From positions 1-34,331 of IMG/VR virus record IMGVR_UViG_3300046740_000325: DNA of 34,331 nucleotides; one strand, written 5' to 3'. Shown here in pieces: positions 2,260 to 31,783 of the stretch. The notes under the pieces were generated by a model. It was given only the letters and a program-made list of their open reading frames with translations. It was not told where the DNA came from and searched no databases. The position numbers and the translations under genes were made by a program. Each line of letters starts with the position of its first letter. Position 1 is the first letter of the stretch. Origin of the DNA: a virus.

Positions 2260-2473
2260 CGGGGAGCCCAGATATATACGCGAGCCCTGGTGCTGGCGGG
2301 AACCCTCGAATGCAGCGCGAGCCCAAAGGTTATGCGTGAACCCAACAAGAGGCGCGAGCCCGATGAGGGGCGAGAACCATACACCATTGCGCGAGCCTTC
2401 TGGCCGGCGTGAACCCAAAACTCTGCGCGCCGCTTGGCCCGACGATGAGCCCGCCGACAGGCCGCGCGAGCCT
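2260..2473 (+). repeat. 18-bp-periodic repeat array 1 (GCGCGAGCCC / GCGTGAACCC)
   Basis: About twelve 10-bp units begin at 2260, 2278, 2296, 2315, 2334, 2352, 2370, 2389, 2407, 2425 (degenerate), 2443 (degenerate) and 2464. Steps are 18 bp or, in a few places, 19 (once 21). Two versions tend to alternate: GCGCGAGCCC and GCG(T/A/G)GAACCC. The spacers of 8-9 bp differ from each other. The array lies between the HNH start (2154) and the gene at 2587. It is the reverse complement in motif of the array at 3030-3386. If translated in the plus frame it gives a six-residue repeat (VNPxxx-ASPxxx-ENPxxx). Confidence 0.8.
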
Positions 2474-2590
2474 GCCGATCGGGCGCCTGCGGTCTTTTAT
2501 GCCCCGCCCGGGACCTGCCAATTCTGCGACCGGCGGCGCGCCGCCGCCGCCTCCTCGATGCGGCGGATGCGGGAGAAGGGCGAAGGGTGA
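2336..2590 (+). CDS. Small CxxC protein with N-terminus encoded by the repeat array
   Basis: An 84-residue reading whose C-terminal ~36 residues (A-P-P-G-T-C-Q-F-C-D-R-R-R then an Arg/Met-rich tail) look like a genuine small phage protein with one CxxC. Its TGA (2588-2590) overlaps the GTG of the next gene, supporting translation. The first ~45 residues come from the repeat array and read as Asn-Pro/Ser-Pro hexapeptides. The true start is uncertain: GTG 2336 and ATG 2363 are both in frame, and no strong ribosome site marks either. Either the repeat invaded the 5' end of this gene, or the gene really begins inside it. Confidence 0.4.
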   Translation: MNPTRGASPMRGENHTPLREPSGRREPKTLRAAWPDDEPADRPREPADRAPAVFYAPPGTCQFCDRRRAAAASSMRRMREKGEG

Positions 2591-2838
2591 GCGAGATGGT
2601 CGAGCGGGTGAAACGGGTCATCTGGGCCGGCGCCGATCATCCTGACCCAGAGGTCTGCCGGATAATCGCCCAAAACGTGTTGGAGGCGCTGCGCGAGCCG
2701 ACCGGAGAGATGAAGGATGCCGGGGCGGCGACCTACGGTATCCACGACGCTCATATCGGCCCCCTTCCGCAGGGTGTCATTATTGGCCAGCCCTCCAAGG
2801 CGTGGCGCGCGATGATCGATGCGGCGCGGGGGCGGTAG
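2587..2838 (+). CDS. Conserved small phage protein (REPT...AWRAMIDAA type)
   Basis: An 83-residue protein with a pattern seen in many alphaproteobacterial phage hypothetical proteins: M-V-E-R-V-K-R-x-I at the N-terminus, A-L-R-E-P-T-x-E-M-K-D-A-G in the middle and A-W-R-A-M-I-D-A-A at the end. It is probably a compact helical cytoplasmic protein. Function is unknown in the family. GTG 2587 overlaps the previous stop; ATG 2596 is an alternative start nine bases later. It lies between the two inverted repeat arrays. Confidence 0.7.
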   Translation: MSEMVERVKRVIWAGADHPDPEVCRIIAQNVLEALREPTGEMKDAGAATYGIHDAHIGPLPQGVIIGQPSKAWRAMIDAARGR

Positions 2839-2847
2839 GAGGACGCC

Positions 2848-3015
2848 GTGCCCAAAGGTACCAAGGTCGCGAGGCTCGAGGCCAAGCTGAAGGCCGAGTA
2901 CGGCAGCTCGCCCGCCGCCGCCGGCAAGGTCTACGGCACGCTCAACAAGGTCGGGCTGATGCGTGGCAACCAGCCGACCAAGAAGGGGCTGCAGAAGGCC
3001 AGCCGCTTGCGCTAG
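2848..3015 (+). CDS. Small basic phage protein (MPKGTK type)
   Basis: A 55-residue, strongly basic protein starting M-P-K-G-T-K-V-A-R-L-E-A-K-L-K and ending Q-P-T-K-K-G-L-Q-K-A-S-R-L-R. A very good ribosome site (TAGGAGGA, 2837-2844) precedes the GTG at 2848, which fixes the start. The content is typical of small phage proteins that may bind nucleic acid; no function is established. Its stop (3013-3015) is 14 bp before the first unit of repeat array 2. Confidence 0.65.
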   Translation: MPKGTKVARLEAKLKAEYGSSPAAAGKVYGTLNKVGLMRGNQPTKKGLQKASRLR

Positions 3016-3029
3016 GCGCGCCCAGGATA

Positions 3030-3386
3030 GGGTTCTCGCAACTCGTCGGGCTCGCGCCTCGTATTGGGTTCACGCAAGACATTGGGCTCGCGCACCGTTT
3101 GGGGTTCTCGCTCTTACTAGGGCTCGCGCCGTCGATCCGGGTTCGCGCAAATGCTTGGGCTCGCGCGCGTACTATAATAAGCGCGCGCAGGTGGTAGGGT
3201 TCACGCCGGTGACTGGGCTCGCGCACTCAATAGGGTTCACGCATTCAATGGGGCTCGCGCTTCGCTTTGGGTTCTCGCCCCTTTTAGGGCTCGCGCCTAT
3301 CGTAGGGTTCCCGCTACCCGATGGGCTCGCGCATTCAATGGGGCTCTCGCAAGACATTGGGCTCGCGCTATCTCCCGGGTTCACGC
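3030..3386 (+). repeat. 18-bp-periodic repeat array 2 (GGGCTCGCGC / GGGTTCACGC)
   Basis: Nineteen clear 10-bp units start at 3030, 3048, 3066, 3084, 3102, 3120, 3139, 3157, 3197, 3215, 3233, 3251, 3269, 3287, 3305, 3323, 3341, 3359 and 3377. All steps are exactly 18 bp except one of 19 (3120 to 3139) and one 40-bp gap holding a decayed unit. GGGTTC(A/T/G/C)CGC and GGGCTCGCGC alternate, giving a 36-bp super-period, broken once (3323-3359). The 8-bp spacers mostly differ, but AAGACATT occurs twice (3076, 3351) and ATTCAATG twice (3243, 3333). The array fills the gap between the convergent genes ending at 3015 and 3393. Confidence 0.9.
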
Positions 3387-3392
3387 ACCTCT

Positions 3393-4313
3393 TTAGGCTG
3401 GGTAGGGCGGTGGAATATAGGTGGTGTGGCCCTGGTGCGCGATCGGAAAGGGCGCCACGATCGGCCGCCCGAGCTTCAATAGCCACACCTCGTTCATGTG
3501 GCTGAGGAAGAGCTTGACCGCATAGCGCCGGGCCCGGCCGTCGATCTGCGACGGCGGCAGGTGGCCGGCGGCATAGTGCCCGTAGGCCTGCGTCTTCTTG
3601 CCGACCCGCGGCAGCCATAAGGCGGCATCGGCGGTGCGCTTGCCGGTGTCCGACATCATCTGCTCAAACACCTTGCGCTCGCGGTAGAGGTGGCCGTAGT
3701 AGCAGTCTTCGCGCGCCGCCAGCTTCATGAAACTCTGTCCGGCATGCCAGCACAGCGTCTTCAAACGCTGGTTGTAGGGTCGCTTTTCGCCGCTCTTCCA
3801 GGCCTTCTGACCATCGGCGGCGAGCCCGGCGAAGGCGTAGACCCGGCCGGCCGTGGGTCGCGGCCCCTCGAGGTTGGCCAGCATGCCGGCGGCGATGACC
3901 GGGCCGATGCCGACGATCTGGCGCATCCACTCGCCCATGACGTGCTCTTTTGTGTAGGCGTCGAGCGCGCGCTTGATCTGGCCTTCCAAGATCCGCGATT
4001 GCTCGAAGAGCCAGTCGACCAGGATGTGCGGCTCGGGCACCGGGTCCTCGGCTTCGCCGATCTTGACGCCTTTTTCGAGCGCGAGGGCCTGGGAATGGGC
4101 GCGCTTGCGGTTTTCTTGAAACGTGTAGTAGGCATCGACCAGGAACCGCGCCTCCTTGGGTCCCATGGTCCCGGCCGCCTGGAGGAGATCGCGGCTGAGC
4201 CGCCCGACGGCGAACTTGCTGGCCGCGCGCTCGGTGATCTCGATAACCTCGCCGCAAGACGGACACTCGATTTTTTCGTCGTCGTCATCGTCGACATAGG
4301 CCGCAAATGCCAT
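3393..4313 (-). CDS. Orphan IS110-type C-terminal (Transposase_20-like) domain protein
   Basis: A 306-residue protein. Residues 7-21 hold an acidic run and one CPSC. Residues 130-200 resemble the C-terminal domain of IS110/IS116-family transposases: helix-hairpin-helix G-I-G-P-V-I-A-A-G-M-L-A-N-L-E (135-149), Y-A-F-A-G-L (159-164) and K-S-G-E-K-R-P (173-179), where S174 is placed like the Ser of the SG motif. The N-terminal RuvC-like DEDD nuclease domain of those transposases is missing. The C-terminal ~60 residues (A-V-K-L-F-L-S-H...P-I-A-H-Q-G-H-T-x-Y-I-P-P-P) are a phage-type tail I have seen in hypothetical proteins. ATG 4313 follows CCGGAGG at a good distance. It is probably a DNA-binding phage protein, not an active transposase; no terminal inverted repeats were found. 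Confidence 0.6.
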   Translation of the reverse strand: MAFAAYVDDDDDEKIECPSCGEVIEITERAASKFAVGRLSRDLLQAAGTMGPKEARFLVDAYYTFQENRKRAHSQALALEKGVKIGEAEDPVPEPHILVDWLFEQSRILEGQIKRALDAYTKEHVMGEWMRQIVGIGPVIAAGMLANLEGPRPTAGRVYAFAGLAADGQKAWKSGEKRPYNQRLKTLCWHAGQSFMKLAAREDCYYGHLYRERKVFEQMMSDTGKRTADAALWLPRVGKKTQAYGHYAAGHLPPSQIDGRARRYAVKLFLSHMNEVWLLKLGRPIVAPFPIAHQGHTTYIPPPYPA

Positions 4314-11808: not shown

Positions 11809-12221
11809 GCCTTGGTCTCCGGCCCGAAGCTGAGCGGCTGCACCAGATTGACGGCGTCGCTGCCGTGACCCTTGAGGCTTTCGATCCAGACGTGACAGCG
11901 CTCGAGCCCGCCCTCGAACCCAAAGGCCTCGGCGATCATCGCCACGGCGGCCGGGTGCGGCATCGCTTTCGGGTCGTCGATCGACACGCTGAGGTGCCGA
12001 GCGGCGCCGATCGGGTGGCCGGTCTCGATCGAGTACGTCGCCGCGTAGCCCATCGGGATCGCGATCGTCTGCTCGGTCATCTGCCGCATATGCGCCGCCT
12101 TGATCAAGGGCCGCTTGAGCCGTTTTACCAGCCGCTCCATGTTGACCGGCTTGGCCGCCGCCCGCTCGCGCAGCTCGGCAATGAGGCGCTCCTCGTCCGG
12201 CCCGATCAGCAATCCGCGCAT
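11805..12221 (-). CDS. Unrecognised phage accessory protein, minus strand in late operon
   Basis: A 138-residue protein of mixed helix and strand (N-M-E-R-L-V-K-R-L-K-R-P, Y-S-I-E-T-G-H-P-I-G-A-A-R-H-L-S-V-S-I, V-A-M-I-A-E-A-F-G-F-E-G-G). No motif identifies a function. It is encoded against the structural genes, overlaps the end of the gene at 11446-11808 by four bases, and is the last of three minus-strand genes, so it looks like part of an inserted accessory (moron) unit with its own promoter, probably near 13294-13379. Confidence 0.65.
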   Translation of the reverse strand: MRGLLIGPDEERLIAELRERAAAKPVNMERLVKRLKRPLIKAAHMRQMTEQTIAIPMGYAATYSIETGHPIGAARHLSVSIDDPKAMPHPAAVAMIAEAFGFEGGLERCHVWIESLKGHGSDAVNLVQPLSFGPETKA

Positions 12222-12234
12222 CGCTCAGTATCCA

Positions 12235-12417
12235 TTATGGCCGCCGCCACCACAGCCCGGCCACGTTGAACGCAGGCGGCAGCTGGTTCCATTGTCCAAA
12301 CCACTGGGGTTGACGGTGGACAGCCTCGTCGCGCGCGAACTCAACCGTCACGCCGCCGGGCGGGAGCCGTTCATCGATCGAGGTCCAGCCCTCGTCGCGC
12401 AGCTCTTGCGCGGTCAT
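12235..12417 (-). CDS. Small protein resembling DUF551-type phage proteins
   Basis: A 60-residue protein: W-T-S-I-D-E-R-L-P-P-G-G-V-T-V-E-F-A-R near the N-terminus and a Trp-rich end (F-N-V-A-G-L-W-W-R-R-P). The W-x-S-I-x-x-R-L-P start is reminiscent of the short phage DUF551 family, of unknown function. Second of three minus-strand genes in this insert. Confidence 0.5.
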   Translation of the reverse strand: MTAQELRDEGWTSIDERLPPGGVTVEFARDEAVHRQPQWFGQWNQLPPAFNVAGLWWRRP

Positions 12418-13378: not shown

Positions 13379-14458
13379 ATGGCCGAAACCGATGGCGCCG
13401 TCGCCGATGCTGGCGGTGCTGCACAGCCTGTTGCGCCCCTCAACAACGGCGCGACCCCCAGTTTCACGGTCACCGATACGCGCTCGGCCGGCGATGCGAT
13501 TGCCGGCCTCCTCTTTGACGCGGGTGATCCGACGCCACCTCCCGCGCCCCGCGAGAGGGGCGCCGCTGACCAATCCGGCGGCGACGAGCCGCTCGATACC
13601 GGAGCCGATGAGAGCCGGCCCACCGGGACTGACGACGACAAAGGCTCAGGCGAACAGCCGCCAGCGGCTGCCATCGAACCGCCGAAGTCGTGGACACAAG
13701 ACGAACAGCAGGCCTTCTCGCAGCTCCCACCCGCCCTGCAGCAGACGATTGTCCGGCGGGAGAGCCAGAGGGAAGTGGTGCTGACCCAACGCAGCCAGGA
13801 GGCCGCCGAAGCCCGCAGAGCCTATGACGGCGAGCGGCAGGCGGCTGCGGCCCTACGCGGCGAGTATCTTCAGGGTCTGCAAAAAATGATGGCGCTGGCG
13901 GTGCCGGAAGCGGCGCAGCTCGCCAACGTCGATTGGGTGGGGGTTCAGGCGCAGTCTCCGGCCGAGTACACCCGGCTGCAGGCAATGCGTGAACAGCTCC
14001 GCAGCAGGCTCGGTGCGATCGAACAGGAGTTCCAGCAAGGTCAGGCCCAGCTGTCGGCTATCCAACAGCAGCAGCTCGGCGAGCTGGTCACCAGGGAGCA
14101 GGCAGCCCTCAACGAGAAGCTGCCTGACTTTGGCGATCAGGTGAAGGGGGCCCAGCTCCGCAAGGAGCTGAGCACCTATCTGCTCGATGCCGGCGGGTTC
14201 AACCCGCAGGAGGTCAGCAGCGCCTACGATCACCGGCTCGTCGTGCTGGCGACCAAGGCAATGCTGTACGACCGGCAGCTCGCCGCCGCGGCATCGGCCG
14301 ACGCCAAGCGGAACAACCCGACACCCCAGGTCAGGGCTCCCGGCACCAGCCAGGACAATGACCGGGGGCCGCGATCGCGCCTGCAAGCTCGCGTCAACAG
14401 GTTTGGCCGCACGAACAGCGTGCGCGACGCCGGTTCGCTCATCAGCGACATCCTCTAA
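13379..14458 (+). CDS. Scaffolding protein
   Basis: A 359-residue protein directly before the capsid gene. Residues 1-100 are acidic and Pro/Gly-rich (disordered), followed by S-W-T-Q-D-E-Q-Q-A-F-S-Q-L-P and a long Gln/Glu/Ala-rich helical part (residues ~115-245), and a basic C-terminus (R-S-R-L-Q-A-R-V-N-R-F-G-R). Helical body and basic tail match internal scaffolds such as P22 gp8, which co-assemble with coat protein and leave before packaging. GAGG nine bases upstream marks the ATG. The divergent 84-bp gap to 13294 probably carries promoters for both directions, though no good consensus box is visible. Confidence 0.75.
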   Translation: MAETDGAVADAGGAAQPVAPLNNGATPSFTVTDTRSAGDAIAGLLFDAGDPTPPPAPRERGAADQSGGDEPLDTGADESRPTGTDDDKGSGEQPPAAAIEPPKSWTQDEQQAFSQLPPALQQTIVRRESQREVVLTQRSQEAAEARRAYDGERQAAAALRGEYLQGLQKMMALAVPEAAQLANVDWVGVQAQSPAEYTRLQAMREQLRSRLGAIEQEFQQGQAQLSAIQQQQLGELVTREQAALNEKLPDFGDQVKGAQLRKELSTYLLDAGGFNPQEVSSAYDHRLVVLATKAMLYDRQLAAAASADAKRNNPTPQVRAPGTSQDNDRGPRSRLQARVNRFGRTNSVRDAGSLISDIL

Positions 14459-19808: not shown

Positions 19809-20056
19809 GAACGACGGAGCCCGTGGTAGCCCCACTCCTCAAGGCCCTCGAAGATGCCCTCAGCTTTCTGGCTGCTGTTCAGCCCCCATAGCTGGCGCTC
19901 GGCCATGCGGCGTTGAGCGGAGCCGGGAGCGGCGGCATCCCTGCGCGCAATCGCCGCGACAATGATGCGCTCGAGGGCGCGCTCCTCTTCCAGCTCCGCA
20001 AACGGCATCCCGCTTTCGTCGCAGGTTGGTTCGTCATCGTCGATGTCCTGTTCCAT
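19802..20056 (-). CDS. Small minus-strand protein within the tail operon
   Basis: An 84-residue acidic/helical protein (E-Q-D-I-D-D-D-E-P-T-C-D-E-S-G-M-P-F-A-E-L-E-E-E-R-A-L-E-R-I-I...Q-R-R-M-A-E-R-Q-L-W-G-L-N...I-F-E-G-L-E-E-W-G-Y-H). It fills the gap between the genes ending at 19808 and starting at 20096, in the opposite direction, and its stop overlaps the end of the preceding plus gene. Ribosome site is weak (AGG directly before ATG). Possibly a late-inserted accessory gene; not recognised. Confidence 0.5.
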   Translation of the reverse strand: MEQDIDDDEPTCDESGMPFAELEEERALERIIVAAIARRDAAAPGSAQRRMAERQLWGLNSSQKAEGIFEGLEEWGYHGLRRSY

Positions 20057-20095
20057 CCTGATGGTATAACCCACAACAGCCTCGAGCGCCAGCCC

Positions 20096-30377: not shown

Positions 30378-31433
30378 CTAAGCGACCGTTCTGGGTCTGA
30401 TCTGGGCCGCCCGGGCGAGCGCGATGCGGCGCCGATCGGCGTTCTTGGTGTAGTGGTCGGGCTGCTCGTGGGTCGACCACCCATACTTTGATTTGAGTTC
30501 GGTCGTCGTCCAGCCGGCCTCGGCGTCGGCGGTCGCCGCTGCCTTGCGGATGCCATGCGCGCCGAAGCCGGCGGGGACGCCTGCCAGCCGCGCCCACTTG
30601 GCGACCTGGGCGCTGAAGTAGTGCGCGTTATGGAACGGCAGCCCCTGCTCGGTGCGCAGCAGCACGCCGACGGTCTCGTCGAGCCCGCAGGCGGTGATCT
30701 CGTCCGCCAGCTCGGGCGTCAGGGCGGGGAACGATGCCTCGCCGGTCTTCTGCCGGCTGAACTCGACGAGCCCGCCGACGATGTTGCGGCGCGTCAACCG
30801 TATCGCGTCGCAGCACGCAGCGCCGGTGCCGTAGAGCATCTCGATCGCGAGGCGCTGCGGCGTGCCGCTCGGCCAGTACTCGCGATAGGCCTCGAGGTGC
30901 TCCGGCTCCCAGGTCGGGTAGCCGTCGGGGTTGGTGGAGGGCGGTGCCTTGAGCCCGAGCGTCGGGTCCTCCTCGATCTCGCCCGCGGCGATGCGGTCGG
31001 CGACCATCGCGCGAACCGCGACCAGCCAGTTGCGTGCGGCGCCCGGCGTGCCGGCCCGCAGGTACAGCATCCCGGCGAGCGCCTTGCGGGTCAGCTCGCC
31101 AAACGCCTCGTCGCCATACTCCCGCACCCACCCGTCTAGGAGGTAGCGCCGCGCGGCCTTCGTCGCGGGCTCCAGTTTCTGGAACGTATGGCTCCCCATG
31201 TAGCTGGTCACCGCGTCGCGGATCGTTCCCGCGCCGGTGGCCAGCTTTTTTTTGCGCCTGGGGGTCGGCGGCGTCGGGTTGTCGGCAGCTTGGGCGGCGG
31301 CGAGCGCTGCCTTGTAGGCGGCCATGAACGCGGGGCCGGACGGCTTGCCGTCGGGCAGCCTGACGCGCGCCTGCTTCTTGTACCGCAGGTAGTTATACCC
31401 GTCGAAGCTTTGAACGTACTGTAACTTGTTCAT
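30378..31433 (-). CDS. int: Tyrosine recombinase / integrase
   Basis: A 351-residue site-specific recombinase. The N-terminal part carries an arm/core-binding region (F-M-A-A-Y-K-A-A-L-A, then the helical domain 70-160). In the catalytic domain I see the beta-hairpin Lys K229 (R-Q-K-T), H293-G-I-R296, W319 in Y-G-W-S in place of the second His, and the nucleophile Y328 (D-H-Y-T-K). The first catalytic Arg, expected in T-G-x-R, is absent: the segment reads T203-G-A-A-C-C-D-A-I-R-L. GGAGAGG before ATG 31433 fixes the start; the open frame further upstream is not used. It should integrate phage DNA into the host chromosome, with attP probably in the gap at 30227-30377 or just upstream. Confidence 0.85.
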   Translation of the reverse strand: MNKLQYVQSFDGYNYLRYKKQARVRLPDGKPSGPAFMAAYKAALAAAQAADNPTPPTPRRKKKLATGAGTIRDAVTSYMGSHTFQKLEPATKAARRYLLDGWVREYGDEAFGELTRKALAGMLYLRAGTPGAARNWLVAVRAMVADRIAAGEIEEDPTLGLKAPPSTNPDGYPTWEPEHLEAYREYWPSGTPQRLAIEMLYGTGAACCDAIRLTRRNIVGGLVEFSRQKTGEASFPALTPELADEITACGLDETVGVLLRTEQGLPFHNAHYFSAQVAKWARLAGVPAGFGAHGIRKAAATADAEAGWTTTELKSKYGWSTHEQPDHYTKNADRRRIALARAAQIRPRTVA

Positions 31434-31602
31434 CGACCAGCCTCTCCAGAGAGTTGCCGCTTGGCGGCGCAGCCTTGTTGCTGCCACCAACATATATGAC
31501 AATCTTGCCCTCTCGATCAACCTCGATGCGTGCGACATTTTCGCCAGCGTTTTTCGCAGCTTTGACAAACCTCGTGACGTCACGTTGCCGAGGTAGGGCC
31601 AT
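31393..31602 (-). CDS. Small protein upstream of integrase
   Basis: A 69-residue protein: P-R-Q-R-D-V-T-R-F-V-K-A-A-K-N-A-G-E-N-V-A-R-I-E-V-D-R-E-G-K-I-V-I-Y-V-G-G. This pattern (helix, then A-R-I-E-V-D-x-x-G-K-I) is very common directly before integrase genes in alphaproteobacterial prophages. Function is unknown; a role as excision or DNA-binding helper is inferred from position only. It overlaps the integrase start by 41 bp. Confidence 0.7.
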   Translation of the reverse strand: MALPRQRDVTRFVKAAKNAGENVARIEVDREGKIVIYVGGSNKAAPPSGNSLERLVDEQVTVRSKLRRV

Positions 31603-31783
31603 CGTCCTGCTCCTCCATTTTGCGGGCGCGCGCAAACGCGATGGCGCCGCGGTCGAGGGCCCGCTGGCGCTCCTCGGCGAGCACCTGCGACATGCGGCGG
31701 TGGCCCGGCAGCGGCAGGCCCGGCCACGTCGCCGCCCGGCCTGGGCCGGCCGCCCACTGCGGGATCGGAACCACATCAGGCAT
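31580..31783 (-). CDS. Small hypothetical phage protein
   Basis: A 67-residue protein with V-V-P-I-P-Q-W at the N-terminus and a basic helical second half (M-S-Q-V-L-A-E-E-R-Q-R-A-L-D-R-G-A-I-A-F-A-R-A-R-K-M-E-E-Q). It overlaps both neighbours slightly (23 bp downstream, 8 bp upstream), typical of this block. GAGGGG lies upstream of ATG 31783. No family recognised. Confidence 0.55.
   Translation of the reverse strand: MPDVVPIPQWAAGPGRAATWPGLPLPGHRRMSQVLAEERQRALDRGAIAFARARKMEEQDDGPTSAT

Follow-up and report, generated by a model that had tools for sequence, protein, structure and literature searches.

The window analysed here, IMG/VR virus record IMGVR_UViG_3300046740_000325 over its whole 34,331 bp, carries two arrays of short alternating repeats beside tasA, a gene for a nuclease-less Nop-domain protein. 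We put at about 0.8 the probability that this is a phage-borne TIGR-TasA system, in whose relatives the guides aim at an early operon of other phages, and that its likely role is competition between phages. Membership of the window in this group follows from the profile and fold matches of the protein to TasR and TasH, from the alternation of the repeats beside the gene, and from 35 further loci with the same association.

When TIGR-Tas was described in 2025, it was left open what the system targets in nature, what biological role it has and what TasA, which lacks a nuclease, does (PMC12045711). In a TIGR array, which lies beside the gene of a Nop-domain protein, edge repeats alternate with loop repeats, each 8-12 nt long and separated by spacers of about 9 nt. 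The array is processed into 36-nt RNAs (tigRNAs); it starts with a 5'-truncated edge and ends with a 3'-truncated edge and a terminator (Faure et al. 2025, PMC12045711). Genuine natural targets could not be identified in that study, and none is reported in the open-licence PMC literature to August 2026, a scope outside which subscription papers and preprints fall. Other work has established for the family the processing of the 36-nt RNA, a dimeric Nop protein, and binding of both DNA strands with a sharp bend. What is new here is a set of concrete guide/target pairs, in which a contiguous 16-bp sequence in the early replication operon of another phage reads spacer A followed, without a gap, by the reverse complement of spacer B, written A.rc(B). 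These pairs make the competition hypothesis testable at the bench. The matches also lend the two-strand, tandem-guide geometry independent support from nature, and imply that a phage protein labelled as a stray IS110 transposase domain can be a DNA binder guided by RNA.

Repeat arrays and the adjoining tasA gene

The window encodes SU10-type portal and major capsid proteins (Pfam scan). The array region contains the following features.

3393..4313, minus strand: tasA, encoding a 306-aa solo Nop-domain protein; directly adjoins the right array
3387..3399, minus strand: array start, a 5'-truncated edge (AGCC) within the last tasA codons; the first spacer, TAAAGAGGT, contains the tasA stop codon
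3030..3386, minus strand (the tas sense): main TIGR array, loop GCGNGAACCC and edge GCGCGAGCCC alternating, 8-nt spacers, about ten 36-nt tigRNA units
3016..3021, minus strand: 3'-truncated edge GCGCGC at the far end of the main array, read from the sequence
3004-2987, minus strand: weak terminator-like stem past that truncated edge (consensus match)
2278..2415, plus strand: second TIGR array, 8 clear units, flanked by degenerate units near 2260 and as far as about 2480
2477..2502, plus strand: terminator-like stem and T run directly after the second array (consensus match only)
2587-2838 and 2848-3015 (span 2587..3015), plus strand: two small open reading frames between the arrays, no Pfam or PHROG match

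The pattern GGGYTCNCGC-N8-GGGYTCNCGC occurs 17 times in the window; its count in 100 dinucleotide shuffles is 0.00. This bears out the view of the preliminary description that the arrays are too regular for chance. Its account of the right array also stands: on the plus strand, 3030-3386 holds 19 exact GGGYTCNCGC units, 18 bp apart save for one step of 19 bp and one 40-bp break at a degenerate unit, and two versions, GGGTTCNCGC and GGGCTCGCGC, alternate with a single exception (GGGCTCTCGC at 3341). On the opposite strand these repeats read GCGNGAACCC and GCGCGAGCCC and are separated by 8-nt spacers. The left array was correctly described as the reverse complement with the same period; its 8 units, which include three 19-bp steps, have the architecture of the right array in the opposite orientation. 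With two alternating 10-nt repeats and unrelated 8-nt spacers, the structure is neither a CRISPR nor a simple tandem repeat, as had been recognized from the sequence. It is a TIGR array, with GCGAGAACCC as loop repeat and GCGCGAGCCC as edge repeat.

Two spacers had been seen to occur twice. AATGTCTT is used as spacer A both times, and CATTGAAT is used once as B and once as A within one array (window 3341-3350 and 3233-3260); with tigRNAs written as spacer A, point, spacer B, guide 5 (CATTGAAT.ACTCAATA) specifies a nearly palindromic target. The suggestion that the two arrays could pair as one long stem fails, because they are oppositely oriented guide arrays with mostly unrelated spacers (mean spacer identity 29%, best pairs 6/8 and 5/8).

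The gene at 3393-4313 on the minus strand, beside the right array, was overlooked in the first reading. The sole Pfam match of its product is Transposase_20, the IS110 C-terminal domain, and its PHROG match is phrog_4285, annotated 'transposase'. These labels favour the view that the locus descends from an IS110 element and its repeats from a decayed bridge RNA. The protein itself tells against this: no N-terminal nuclease or DEDD domain (PF01548) is found by Pfam scan, length and alignment; homologues in array-bearing relatives keep 64-76% identity; and a profile built from 23 homologues matches TasR (9mty, E=1.2e-21) and TasH (21kl, 6.7e-12) far better than IS621 (2.2e-4). An AlphaFold (AF2) model (mean predicted local distance difference test score, pLDDT, 84.9), searched against the PDB with Foldseek, gives TasR or TasH chains as its first 11 matches, followed by IS110 recombinases. 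Since the arrays are also not single bridge RNAs, descent from a decayed IS110 element is very improbable. The protein is a solo Nop-domain, nuclease-less TasA; it is assigned to TasA rather than TasH or TasR because it is 306 aa long, matches Transposase_20 alone and aligns without a fused nuclease.

An Rfam search gave no match, and no cas genes were seen adjoining the array. The small genes bracketed by the arrays, which the preliminary description had placed inside its possible stem, are incidental and lie outside the system, as no homologues of them occur in the other array-bearing phages. Next to the left array, at 1762-2154, lies a free-standing HNH endonuclease gene that is absent from the other array-bearing records; it is not taken as part of a TasH because it is not conserved with the arrays.

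Related arrays and the inherited unit

A scan of IMG/VR with a three-unit repeat pattern found seven other array-bearing phages, and one further record (G002) that was set aside as a simple 18-bp tandem repeat. The preliminary description had asked whether related phages keep the cores while the spacers change. They do: the motif is retained, and a chain search reveals arrays that alternate strictly, run to as many as 64 units and advance in steps of 18 bp, at times 19 bp, with unrelated spacers. In five of the seven phages a TasA homologue ends exactly at the array start, with the array on the same strand relative to the gene each time. The structural genes of the window are mostly not shared with three of these phages (G001, G004 and G006). 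Of the remaining two records, G008 is a fragment of 7 kb, and G007, a fragment of 28.9 kb, has no detected Tas gene; G007, from the same sample as G006 (3300036783), carries its units in two long arrays (L108:9113-10889 and L109:2341-3400). The 61.9-kb phage G001 (L093-L096) has five scattered arrays, at 208-398, 11918-12369, 13485-13751, 20018-20081 (-) and 53875-53937 (+), of which one is in the opposite orientation and two flank the tas gene. Among bacterial matches to the three-unit pattern in GTDB contigs, the one locus inspected (L089) proved to be a simple tandem repeat of 18 bp, and most others hold a single match.

A protein-based search returned 44 viral loci. All 35 of the loci L116-L150 carry a 36-nt dual-repeat array in the tas sense, nearly always adjoining the gene or within about 0.5 kb of it. 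In most loci the tas stop codon abuts or overlaps the truncated edge (TAAGCCC, TAGCCC, TAACCA; 30 of 41 by a strict pattern). The end motifs of edge and loop covary between groups, being GCG..CCC in the window clade and GAG/GAA..CCA (GA...CA) in loci whose sample series points to a freshwater origin, the habitat not being stated in the contig names; outside the window clade the repeats are GAACGAGTCA/GAGAGAACCA or GAGCGAGCCA/GAGAGTACCA. No 36-nt dual-repeat array was found at L151-L155, one truncated and four distant homologues at 34% identity. The four distant ones (L152-L155) lie on 45-kb contigs and possibly represent TIGR arrays of the stem-loop type. Cultured phages (INPHARED) and plasmids, searched with the homologue from G004, yielded no Tas.

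The relatives also bear on a coding origin, in which the repeat would specify an R-E-P-x-x-x hexapeptide. Core variation falls at synonymous positions of CGN GAR CCC, and some short reading frames do read REP repeats. Across the clade arrays, however, stops interrupt nearly all frames, no frame is open on either strand in all relatives, the 19-bp steps shift the frame, and GAACGAGTCA and GAGAGAACCA do not encode REP; of the explanations weighed here, this is the least probable.

Spacer inheritance was compared between the freshwater arrays. Where two arrays have a spacer A in common, the following B is also shared in 139 of 180 comparisons, whereas a common B is followed by a common A in only 62 of 220. 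Because A keeps its B far more often than B keeps the next A, what is inherited is the 36-nt piece from edge to edge, which fits joint action of A and B.

Targets of the relatives' guides and the likely role

In the published geometry, the cuts fall 5' of the base that pairs with base 5 of the spacer, on each of the two opposite strands, and leave 3' overhangs (PMC12045711). From this we derive that a target has to read A and then rc(B). The arrays of the relatives point the same way. Where related tigRNAs occur in different arrays, most of their differences fall at a single codon phase of A.rc(B) (P of about 0.001-0.003 under random placement), and a gap of 0 fits this signal better than a gap of 1 or 2. 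In the TACCACGA.AGGCTTCC group, all members except one vary at synonymous positions of Tyr-His-Glu-Gly-Phe. These synonymous variants suggest that guides follow a drifting target or are taken up repeatedly. Furthermore, L135/L136 encode the same duplex as L120 with A and B swapped, as symmetric targeting predicts.

A scan of IMG/VR for the site of the TACCACGA.AGGCTTCC group returned 46 contigs, and 17 of these loci have an operon in common. In 19 operon-bearing sequences, A.rc(B) with gap 0 gives 54 matches at no more than one mismatch (13 perfect, 9 guides). The other 11 of the 12 geometries tested (rc(A).B, A.B, B.A and gaps of 1-2) give 0-5 matches each, none of them perfect. Outside the searched site, the 46 loci contain 12 perfect and 46 one-mismatch guide matches at gap 0, against 0-1 and 1-5 in controls with re-paired spacers. 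Since homologous contigs make such counts non-independent, a test on a single contig was used: G045 (20.7 kb) has three perfect A.rc(B) sites beyond the one that drove the search, specified by guides from three arrays (those of L118, L120-type and L123-type), while re-paired spacers give a mean of 0.012 and a maximum of 1 in 1000. Target geometry thus supports tandem-spacer targeting of both strands, as judged from sequence, for the freshwater relatives.

The sites occupy fixed places in an early operon, within or next to a sigma-like gene, a 153-aa open reading frame and a phrog_2480 gene, and genes for a Sak4-like ATPase, an ssDNA-binding protein, a Cas4-like exonuclease and a helicase follow downstream. 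The guides of the freshwater relatives match the early replication/recombination operon of other phages. L172, for instance, carries sites for TAAGAACC.TTCAAGAA and TACCACGA.AGGCTTCC. No Tas was found at the target loci, and the searched site is present in none of 36 array carriers. Carrier and target come from the same sample twice, in 3300037508 (L120/L179) and 3300032116 (L132/L172). Within array-bearing phages and loci, guide targets show no excess over re-paired spacers.

Other guides led to isolated sites. The most widely shared, CATGAGCT.CACGACGA, has one exact viral match, at L312:5398, which falls near the PDVDMDF motif in the gene for a DnaE-type DNA polymerase of a phage of 109.6 kb. 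The EIDA guide family comprises seven variants in fourteen arrays; its five exact matches lie in unrelated contexts and were not accepted as targets. One of this family's exact in-frame matches, at L243:5535 on a single contig, lies in the C-terminal, HNH-like part of a protein of about 500 aa, which might be a defence or nuclease gene.

These targets also decide against protein-binding direct repeats of the iteron, partition or packaging type, as the preliminary description had proposed, with a Tas gene beside them by chance. In an iteron or partition array, identical direct repeats are bound by a cognate Rep/ParB protein, and regular spacing and direct repeats are indeed iteron-like. However, two repeats alternate, the 18/19-bp steps are not helically phased, a Tas gene is linked to arrays across otherwise different phages and adjoins them in 35 further loci, and pairs of spacers combine into real target sequences. 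Such an origin is scarcely credible.

According to the proposed mechanism, the arrays would be transcribed in the tas sense, and cutting inside each edge repeat would release tigRNAs of about 36 nt, composed of half an edge, spacer A, the loop, spacer B and half an edge. A TasA dimer would hold the tigRNA and bind duplex DNA, with spacer A pairing to one strand and spacer B to the other, the bound target reading A directly and then rc(B). Bound TasA would then keep early genes of a competing phage from being transcribed or replicated. Blocking without cutting is the most likely mode because TasA lacks a nuclease; it is listed as an option by Faure et al., by analogy with type IV and V-M CRISPR (PMC12045711). 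In this phage, expression and tigRNA processing are presumed.

Fourteen tigRNAs can be read in the window arrays; the guides of the window clade number 183. None of the fourteen has a match in its own genome at one mismatch or fewer, and one chance-level match (in G001) was found across the clade. Three window guides were scanned across IMG/VR, with no convincing co-match by other guides of the window clade. Guide 2 (AATGTCTT.ATTCAATG) has 38 matches, which are chance-like; guide 10 (GACGAGTT.CCAGGATA) has 37, in unrelated contig families; and AGTCACCG.AGGTGGTA has 10, with no co-matches. Guide 10 encodes DEFQD, which we take to be a common helicase motif. Two homologous contigs matched by guide 10 also have a guide-5 site at one mismatch, where about 0.1 is expected by chance (an estimate); they were not accepted.

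Several observations weigh against the explanation preferred here. Targets were found for freshwater relatives, whose Tas proteins are 51-53% identical to that of the window, and not for the window or its close clade. The target contigs are homologous, so that match counts are not independent. G007 has more than 120 units yet no Tas gene on its 28.9-kb fragment; the gene may be located outside this fragment or work in trans. Array direction and terminators are read from consensus matches, and the terminator-like signal is weak (4 sites in the scan against 2.1 expected).

The array could also act on the phage's own genome or that of its host, in gene regulation, in aid of an integrase or in partition. 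TasA has no nuclease, integrase aid and regulation are among the options of Faure et al. (PMC12045711), the window has an integrase-like gene at 30378-31631, and targets of its guides were not found. On the other side, no window guide has an own-genome target at up to one mismatch, in a search that took in phage genomes and not host genomes, while relatives' guides match other phages and carriers lack the searched site. A role of this kind is unlikely, though less so than the other alternatives. Competition between phages is the most likely role because the relatives' guides aim at the early operon of other phages, and by extension from the freshwater relatives we infer that this phage's own guides serve it as well. 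A broader proposal, held with somewhat less assurance than the reading above, is that TIGR-TasA is a phage-borne RNA-guided anti-phage weapon that probably directs split 8+8-nt guides to competitors' early replication/recombination operon, exchanges whole 36-nt units, updates its guides along synonymous changes and silences the rival uncut; with its two arrays the window would carry this weapon too, in a podovirus of soil and probably of rhizobia.

Comparison with known systems

CRISPR arrays, including phage mini-CRISPR arrays, likewise set variable spacers, with matches in other phages, between conserved repeats. The window differs in having two alternating 10-nt repeats in place of a single 25-36-nt repeat with spacers of similar length, and in a guide that is split 8+8 and read on both strands. 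The IS110/IS621 bridge-RNA recombinases share a Nop-like RNA-binding domain with the window protein, which has no DEDD catalytic domain, no bridge RNA and a far weaker fold match to them.

TIGR-TasH (Salicola phage CGphi29 SpTIGR; PDB 21kl, 9w04) is closer, with the same Nop fold, a 16-nt guide per tigRNA and a phage origin. TasH has a fused HNH nuclease, whereas the window encodes a TasA without one and the HNH gene at 1762-2154 is separate. The nearest known system is TIGR-TasA (PMC12045711; for example FpTIGR of Flavonifractor plautii), which is also phage-borne and has a solo Nop protein beside an edge/loop array, short dual spacers, a 36-nt unit and a truncated edge at the array start. 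The window differs from it in its repeats (GCGCGAGCCC/GCGAGAACCC), in spacers of 8 rather than 9 nt and in a locus with two oppositely oriented arrays; for its relatives, natural phage targets are now indicated.
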